Of a stretch of 38,262 nucleotides of DNA, positions 8,037 to 11,874 are shown piece after piece. The position numbers and the translations under genes were made by a program. The first letter of the stretch is position 1, and each line of letters opens with the position of its first letter. Under the pieces are notes generated by a model. It had not been told where the DNA came from and did not search any database. It worked only from the letters and a program-made list of their open reading frames with translations. Source of the stretch: Actinomycetota bacterium (lineage in GTDB: Bacteria; Actinomycetota; Actinomycetes; JACCUZ01); contig JAVEDI010000107.1 in assembly GCA_030841035.1 (NCBI GenBank), positions 1 through 38,262 on the forward strand, written 5' to 3'.

Positions 8037-8822
8037 TCAGAGAATGCGACCATAGGACACGTTGGTCGACCACGCGCGGTGCTTGCCCACACCCATGCTC
8101 GGGTTGGACGCTTCGTACCAGTATCCACCGCCGGCGTAGATGGCGACATGGCCGATCGAGCCGCCACCACCGTTGTAGACGAAGACGAGGTCGCCGGGCG
8201 CCGGGCTGGAGACCGACCGCGCGACACCGCGCTGCAAGCCGGACTGGTGCGGCAAGGAGATGCCGACCTGGGCGAAGACGAACTGGGTGAAGCCCGAGCA
8301 GTCGAAGGCCTTCGGGCCATCGCCGCCGTGCACGTAGTAGGCGCCGGACGCGGCAGCGGCAGCGACCGCCAGGACGTGGCCGGCCGATGCCGAGATCGGA
8401 CCGTCCGCGGGACCGTTGGCCGGGCCGTCCGCGCGGCTGAAGGACCGCGACGACGTACCGGTCCTGAGCACACGTGCCTCGGCGGCCCGCTTGGCCGCGG
8501 CCTTCCTGGCCTTCTCGCGCTTGAGCTTGGCGCGTTGGCGGGCCGCGGTCAGCCGGGCCAGGGCCTCCTCGCGCGCCTGGCGCTCGAGGAGGTCGGCGCG
8601 CTGCACCCGCATGCCGGCCTGCGCGGCGGCGCCCGAGTACGGGCGGTCCAACGACACGGGTCTGACGCGAGGGGCCGGGACGCGCTGGTCGGAGGCCACC
8701 GCGACGACGGTGCCGGTCACGGCGACGCTGCCGGCGACACCAGCGGCGACGCTGATGTGCATCGGGCGCTTCGCCGAGCTGGCCAGGCGTGACAGAGCGG
8801 ACGGGCGACGGTGCTTGGACAA
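8037..8822 (-). CDS. NlpC/P60 family cell-wall peptidase
   Basis: Exported or membrane-anchored peptidoglycan endopeptidase of 261 residues, read from a TTG at 8822. Order: a basic N-terminus (SKHRRPSALSRLASSAKRP), a hydrophobic segment (HISVAAGVAGSVAVTGTVVAVA, about 22-43), a charged Lys/Arg/Ala coiled-coil-like linker (~75-120), then the NlpC/P60 domain. The catalytic Cys is in AFDCSGF (C175) and the His in GHVAIYAGG (H225), with a third polar residue expected in YEASNP. The TTG is chosen because GGAGAGGA lies about 8 nt upstream and the open frame beyond it lies inside the conserved riboswitch. This class of autolysin is commonly controlled by c-di-AMP riboswitches in actinobacteria. Confidence 0.88.
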   Translation of the reverse strand: MSKHRRPSALSRLASSAKRPMHISVAAGVAGSVAVTGTVVAVASDQRVPAPRVRPVSLDRPYSGAAAQAGMRVQRADLLERQAREEALARLTAARQRAKLKREKARKAAAKRAAEARVLRTGTSSRSFSRADGPANGPADGPISASAGHVLAVAAAAASGAYYVHGGDGPKAFDCSGFTQFVFAQVGISLPHQSGLQRGVARSVSSPAPGDLVFVYNGGGGSIGHVAIYAGGGYWYEASNPSMGVGKHRAWSTNVSYGRIL

Positions 8823-8837
8823 CCGTTGTCCTCTCCC

Positions 8838-8990
8838 ACGCCTACGAGGTGAGCTGTCGGGTTCGGACGGGAGATGTCCGGCCGCGACGCGCGGCTTCAC
8901 CCCAAGGACCCCAGAGGGCCCACCTTCGTGGGTCCCCCGCTCCTGCCAGGCGGTCTCGACGGACTGCACGGGCGGGGCAGGACTCGGCGG
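8838..8990 (-). promoter_or_regulatory. c-di-AMP (ydaO-type) riboswitch leader
   Basis: On the minus strand the leader contains blocks I recognise from actinobacterial ydaO elements. These are TCCTGCC pairing with GGCAGGA (8976-8982 and 8941-8947), GGCAGGAGCGGGGGACCC, GGGGTGAAGCCGCG, and a 3' end reading CCGAACCCGACAGCT then CACCTCGTAGGCG, followed within a few bases by GGAGAGGA and the start codon. It sits directly before a cell-wall hydrolase gene, the usual target. This is recognised by eye; a covariance-model scan would be decisive. The boundaries are approximate. Confidence 0.85.
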
Positions 8991-11626: not shown

Positions 11627-11656
11627 TTGTCGCGCCCGGCGTCCGCGTCGTAGTCT
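11627..11656 (+). promoter_or_regulatory. Promoter of a short structured transcript
   Basis: TTGTCG (11627-11632) and TAGTCT (11651-11656) are separated by 18 nt. It lies just after the hotdog-like gene and predicts a transcript starting near 11663. Confidence 0.55.
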
Positions 11657-11688
11657 GGACGTACACGGAAGGGAGGTGGTCCGGAGAC

Positions 11689-11727
11689 TTGAGTATTTCC
11701 AGGACGCGTGAGGTGGCTGTCAGCTAG
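11689..11727 (+). CDS. Possible 12-codon peptide (MSISRTREVAVS)
   Basis: A TTG start lies 9 nt after GGGAGGTGG and is followed by 11 sense codons and TAG. The stop lies in the 3' arm of a 7-bp hairpin (11712-11718 with 11726-11732), an arrangement that would let a translating ribosome open or hold the structure. The alternative GTG at 11676 (VVRRLEYFQDA) overlaps the Shine-Dalgarno itself and is less likely. No homolog is recognised. Confidence 0.4.
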   Translation: MSISRTREVAVS

Positions 11728-11786
11728 CCGCCGACTCCGGTTCGATGTTCCGGCCGTACGTGGCCGGCGAATCTCAGGCAGTCACC

Positions 11787-11839
11787 CGACCCGCGGGCCG
11801 CAGGGGAAACGTCCCCCCTGCACCAAGGCCCGCGGGTCG
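11787..11839. terminator. Two-tier hairpin (13 bp + 7 bp) between convergent units
   Basis: The outer stem CGACCCGCGGGCC (11787-11799) pairs with GGCCCGCGGGTCG (11827-11839). The inner stem GCAGGGG (11800-11806) pairs with CCCCTGC (11815-11821), leaving a 5-nt one-sided bulge (ACCAA). It ends the small transcript and can also terminate pdxH from the other side. Confidence 0.75.
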
Positions 11840-11874
11840 CTGCATGTCCGGGGCCCTGCCGTGCGGCCCGCCCG

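Follow-up and report, generated by a model that had tools for sequence, protein, structure and literature searches.

What is encoded in the gap between a hotdog-like gene and pdxH in the window (the whole 38,262-nucleotide stretch of DNA analysed here), where a first-pass annotation had described a small but complete transcription unit, its very short open reading frame (ORF) served by a strong ribosome site, and had recognised no known family? The unit lies after the end of the co-directional hotdog-like gene and is followed by convergent pdxH, then citA and serC. An Rfam covariance-model search settled its identity. The segment is an unannotated member of a known actinobacterial small RNA (sRNA) family, Ms_IGR-5 (RF02471), which it matches over model positions 1–184 of 184, i.e. 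at full length, with 117.4 bits against a gathering cut-off of 45. Every element described by the first-pass annotation was found at the position given for it. The elements of the unit are:

11627–11656, plus strand: promoter (−35 TTGTCG at 11627–11632, 18-nt spacer, −10 TAGTCT at 11651–11656)
11663–11845, plus strand: Ms_IGR-5 small RNA, the full-length RF02471 match
11672–11682, plus strand: extended Shine-Dalgarno (SD) sequence GGAGGTGGTCC, complementary to the 16S rRNA tail GGATCACCTCC with one G-U pair
11689–11727, plus strand: 12-codon ORF with TTG start and TAG stop, peptide MSISRTREVAVS
11787–11799 with 11827–11839, plus strand: terminator-like stem P4, 13 bp, pairing probability ~1.0 for 12 of the 13 pairs
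11800–11806 with 11815–11821, plus strand: inner hairpin P5a, 7 bp, pairs checked

The RF02471 model matched 249 of the 394 genomes of the class (~60% of those sampled), normally in single copy, together with 31 genomes outside the class but within the phylum, where matches mostly fell below the cut-off. Carriers include Mycolicibacterium, Mycobacteroides, Nocardia, Rhodococcus, Amycolatopsis, Micromonospora, Salinispora, Cellulomonas, Nocardioides and Geodermatophilus, and Streptomyces too. Two model matches were seen only in genomes G342 (contig C157) and G087, and the pair in G342 overlaps on one strand. A pattern scan for the core SD-GAGGTG-TAG, in which no start codon was required, found it in 223/394 class genomes (one each among the matches listed), while the reversed control gave zero matches in the same scan. 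The sampled genomes of several families (f5, f24, f25, f34 and f36 are examples), many of them small, gave neither a model nor a core-pattern match, which suggests lineage-specific loss in several families of the class. The core pattern was not found in viral contigs, and occurrence in phages is therefore not supported. For the comparisons below, ~230 relatives were used, among them 204 distinct class members and 30 full-motif loci from outside the class.

Ms_IGR-5 has been detected as an sRNA by RNA-seq in S. lividans, with no function given (PMC8079986), and a study of cold stress in M. smegmatis likewise mentions its detection without assigning a function (PMC10454040). In S. avermitilis it was mapped as a separate transcript with a start and an end (PMC8780764). 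In M. abscessus and M. smegmatis, MS_IGR-5 is reported to carry ribosome footprints, with the caution that footprints fall on other non-coding RNAs as well (PMC4974804). The name scr4389 was considered as another literature name for this RNA, and no link between the two could be made.

Conservation was then used to assess each element of the unit. All 202 relatives compared have TANNNT 21–24 nt ahead of the SD, and in 176 of the 202 TTG lies 16–19 nt upstream of that hexamer (at a spacing of 17 or 18 except in one), against 0.4% in shuffles; the family thus keeps its promoter. A strict scan of the segment for sigma-70 promoters and U-tract terminators found neither, because the consensus is too strict for a GC-rich genome. 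Both tiers of the 13+7 bp terminator-like stem stand at the coordinates given above, and the fold is more stable than 200 dinucleotide shuffles (−95.7 versus −78.8 ± 4.0 kcal/mol, z −4.2). The most conserved stretches of the family are the SD (GGAGGTGGTC), GGAC, GAGGTG and GCTAG; GGAGGTG is present in all aligned relatives, having served as an anchor for part of the set. The 11-nt SD highlighted by the first-pass annotation held up in its position and its complementarity to 16S rRNA, but the 11-mer itself is unremarkable, since this genome has 12 matches to GGAGGTGRTCC and 15 to its reversed control. Conservation therefore had to decide, and it is the conservation of the SD, rather than the 11-mer, that exceeds chance. 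The 16S tail was not found in the draft assembly of this genome; several relatives, both within the class and beyond it, have GGCTGGATCACCTCCTTTCT exactly. Where a lack of conservation in relatives had been named as the outcome that would count against the unit, the promoter, SD and mini-ORF were clearly all kept. This comparative evidence speaks for a real transcription unit, with its own promoter and terminator stem.

The mini-ORF was examined in the same way. The alignment was anchored on GAGGTG and the stop codon, and a pattern spanning codons 5–13 served to collect 119 loci, so that invariance there is partly built in, whereas the start codon, the spacer and codons 2–4 were not used as anchors. 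Without a start codon being required, ATG, GTG or TTG was found in frame with the conserved stop in 202 of the 204 distinct class relatives, versus 37 and 4 of 204 for the other two frames. The ORF is exactly 12 codons long in 190 class members and 11, 13 or 14 codons long in the remaining 12, all of which differ by whole codons; the SD-to-start spacer, by contrast, changes in single-base steps (10 to 13). No in-frame stop was seen where column frequencies predict 13.7. The frame is also kept by the most divergent class members, and all 81 members that were sampled by the Rfam model alone carry the ORF. By this comparison, selection acts on its start, frame, length and stop.

Start codons in the class are TTG (106), ATG (74) and GTG (22). 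An excess of TTG over ATG is unlike ordinary actinobacterial genes, and by these counts the mini-ORF leans to weak starts. Outside the class, 29 of the 30 full-motif loci have an open frame of 13–15 codons when near-cognate starts are allowed, with TTG (10), CTG (9), ATG (3), ATC (3), ATT (2), GTG (1) and ATA (1) as first codons; one of the three common starts is present in 14 of the 30. In five of these loci (L279, L281, L275, L282 and L288) ATT or ATC takes the place of the ATG, GTG, TTG or CTG of relatives, recalling infC and IF3 control. Within the class, a start codon is absent from the expected place only in L218 (Mycolicibacterium lacusdiani; TCG) and L182/L272 (a metagenome-assembled genome; TCA or ACG), and in both the frame stays open. 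The CTG, ATT and ATC codons outside the class, together with TCG and TCA in two class members, could mean that the site is an RNA motif and not a start codon. As the reading frame is kept in the relatives, and within a pseudoknotted fold (see below), ribosomes very probably read a mini-ORF of about 12–15 codons in Ms_IGR-5.

These features bear on the first alternative, that Ms_IGR-5 is a non-coding regulatory RNA or a ribosome decoy that works by base pairing, including pairing with the 16S tail, and in which the ORF is incidental. In its favour, Rfam classes the family as an sRNA, its structure is strong, and the 16S tail is complementary to GAGGUG as well as to the SD. A decoy, however, needs neither a start codon, a fixed frame nor a stop, yet 202/204 relatives have in-frame starts, length changes come in whole codons, in-frame stops are missing, and the first base of the start position is never C in the 202 class members with the ORF. 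A decoy, one of the options raised at the outset, would leave the conserved frame, start and stop unexplained, and we consider this alternative unlikely.

To place the ORF within the RNA fold, long-range and local pairings were compared across relatives. The pairings concerned are:

11702–11706, plus strand: 5' strand of the pseudoknot, GGACG, in codons 5–6, covarying with the terminator loop
11810–11814, plus strand: 3' strand of the pseudoknot, CGTCC, in the loop of the inner hairpin P5a
11712–11721, plus strand: 5' strand of helix P2, GGTGGCTGTC, in ORF codons 8–11, with covariation
11777–11786, plus strand: 3' strand of helix P2, GGCAGTCACC, directly before the terminator, with covariation
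11712–11732, plus strand: alternative local stop-codon hairpin GGTGGCT/AGCCGCC, competing with P2
11723–11729 with 11762–11768, plus strand: possible helix P3 in the stop-codon region, with an A-C mismatch, 69% paired at the best offset

Helix P2 joins codons 8–11 (GGUGRCUGYC) to GRCAGUCACC and is common to the folds of many relatives, with a predicted probability >0.5 in 144/189. When its 3' strand was located by a position matrix blind to the 5' strand, 644 of 690 cells were paired versus 620.4 ± 3.2 expected, a value reached by none of 1000 shuffles. One sequence per genus gave 544/570 versus 522.4 ± 2.6, with slid registers at 106–206. Compensatory pairs include GGUGUUCGCC/GGUGGACACC, GGUGGUUGUC/GGCAACCACC, GGUGACCAUC/GAUGGUCACC and GGUGGCUGCA/UGCAGUCACC. 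The first-pass annotation had buried the stop codon in a hairpin. In the predicted fold of the window RNA this is borne out, with the local stop-codon hairpin taking 94% of the ensemble; across the family, by contrast, covariation backs P2, and the local hairpin is dominant in only 11/189 relatives, with support at one position only. Given that the local hairpin is only 2 kcal/mol better than P2, the two forms are predicted to be near balance in this genome. For P3, pairing exceeds expectation at two positions, giving this helix modest support. A further candidate, P1, in which GUCC beside the SD would pair with GGAC of the ORF around the start codon, is nearly always compatible with the sequences but almost invariant, and gained no support.

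The pseudoknot pairs GGACN in codons 5–6 with NGUCC in the terminator loop. GUCC lies in the inner loop of the terminator in 186/190 relatives. Because shuffles do not remove relatedness, the covariation was counted by genus and by family: the third base of codon 6 pairs with the base before GUCC in 37/57 genera, versus 23.5 ± 3.5 expected (0/5000 shuffles). The same base pair is enriched at family level (16/25 versus 9.8, p 0.004), while shifted registers are not enriched. Two double changes were identified by eye: in L252 the ORF has GGAAC and the loop GUUCC, with GUCC still on the SD side, and in L270 UCGACC is matched by GGUCGA, with GGUCC still on the SD side. In both it is the terminator loop, rather than the SD side, that tracks the change in the ORF, against P1. 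Outside the class, complementarity often extends to 6–7 bases, e.g. CGGGACC/GGUCCCG (L279, L281) and AUGGACC/GGUCCAU (L284). A contact between two RNA molecules, instead of a pseudoknot, could equally leave this signal in the sequences.

Our version of the RNA shares with the Rfam model its SD, GGAC, GAGGUG, UAG, CAGUCACC and terminator. The model has no ORF, no P2 and no pseudoknot, and leaves CAGUCACC unpaired, whereas we infer P2, the pseudoknot and a translated frame for the family. Most subscription journals and the original description aside, this anatomy (translated ORF, P2, pseudoknot and near-cognate starts outside the class) appears to be unreported in the searchable literature.

If ribosomes read the mini-ORF, is it for its peptide? 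In the second alternative Ms_IGR-5 is a microprotein gene, with a 12-residue peptide of the M-x-x-x-R-T-R-E-V-A-x-R type as its product and the RNA as its mRNA. The conserved start, frame and stop would fit, as would Thr at codon 6, kept with a varying third base, and E-V at codons 8–9, constant partly because GAGGTG is an anchor. The synonymous bias that the first-pass annotation had proposed to look for was present in one part of the ORF and missing from another. Among sequences one change apart, synonymous change is in excess at codons 5–7 (46% versus 30% expected), mostly at the third base of codon 6, but not at codons 2–4 (16% observed versus 23% expected), which vary alike at all three positions. 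The excess at codons 5–7, which favours a peptide, can be explained by the pseudoknot, since it is this third base that covaries with the terminator loop. At codon 5 two bases (GG) are fixed and the residue is not, and codon 7 behaves likewise; residues 5, 7, 11 and 12 change while the pairing bases stay, and GAG GTG is never synonymously changed. The microprotein option is weakened by these patterns, and we regard it as unlikely too. As the amino acids are not conserved, the passage of the ribosome, rather than the peptide product, seems to be under selection. Type I toxin mRNAs, a further candidate, encode hydrophobic membrane peptides, whereas the short peptides here, such as MSISRTREVAVS and MNSSRTREVAAR, are polar or charged, and this candidate is not supported.

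Taken together, these observations point to a small RNA that stands alone and is translated, with the translating ribosome opening its fold, a reading to which we give a probability of about one half. A 30S subunit would load at the extended SD and the ribosome would read 12 codons, opening first the pseudoknot (codons 5–6) and then P2 (codons 8–11). At the stop codon it would hold codons 8–12 in its channel and free GGCAGUCACC and the terminator loop. GAGGUG ends six bases before codon 12, speculatively a suitable distance to hold the terminating ribosome by SD pairing. The RNA would in this way be gated between a closed, untranslated state and an open, translated one. Ribosomes reading the mini-ORF or leaving it unread would determine its effect, which is probably exerted in trans. 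More tentatively, Ms_IGR-5 might be a phylum-wide stand-alone sensor that reports translation-initiation capacity in trans, with an extended SD, often weak or near-cognate starts, and an ORF that exists for a ribosome to open the pseudoknot and long-range helix. Were the sensor reading true, translation would be read out by an RNA device that stands by itself, without any gene following it. A "non-coding" Rfam RNA of unknown function, present in Streptomyces and mycobacteria among others, with a conserved frame inside a pseudoknotted fold also changes which experiments are worthwhile, as mutants of the start codon, the stop codon and, by compensatory change, the helices become directly informative.

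Two kinds of known system resemble this proposal. In attenuator leader peptides (trp, erm), the position of a ribosome on a short ORF decides between RNA helices, as ribosome position on the Ms_IGR-5 ORF would choose between helices; Ms_IGR-5 differs in that no regulated gene follows it in a conserved way and its ORF lacks a codon run for an amino acid to be sensed. In the dual-function sRNAs SgrS/SgrT, RNAIII/hld and SR1 the peptide is functional and conserved. Ms_IGR-5 is like them a small structured RNA carrying a conserved ORF, but its peptide is not conserved, and codons 2–4 drift freely.

The genomic surroundings were consistent with a free-standing gene. The pdxH-citA side is common to several relatives, including Streptomyces-like genomes, whereas in others neither pdxH nor citA was found within 3 kb, and neighbours differ between lineages. 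Of the 56 relatives with a (rough) gene call, 35 have a convergent next gene and 21 a co-directional one, and no conserved co-directional downstream gene was found among them. The last alternative, a leader peptide or attenuator acting in cis on a downstream gene (the leader-peptide sensor first envisaged), has the classic layout, with alternative helices and a terminator behind a short ORF, and the 21 co-directional neighbours, in its favour, but with pdxH convergent here, no codon run for one amino acid and a separate unit mapped in S. avermitilis, it is very improbable. From its varied neighbours, Ms_IGR-5 looks like a free-standing gene. Elsewhere in the window, a c-di-AMP riboswitch (RF00379, 69 bits) lies at 8826–8971 on the minus strand, ahead of a minus-strand ORF (8037–8969) that resembles an NlpC/P60 cell-wall hydrolase in its C-terminal part.
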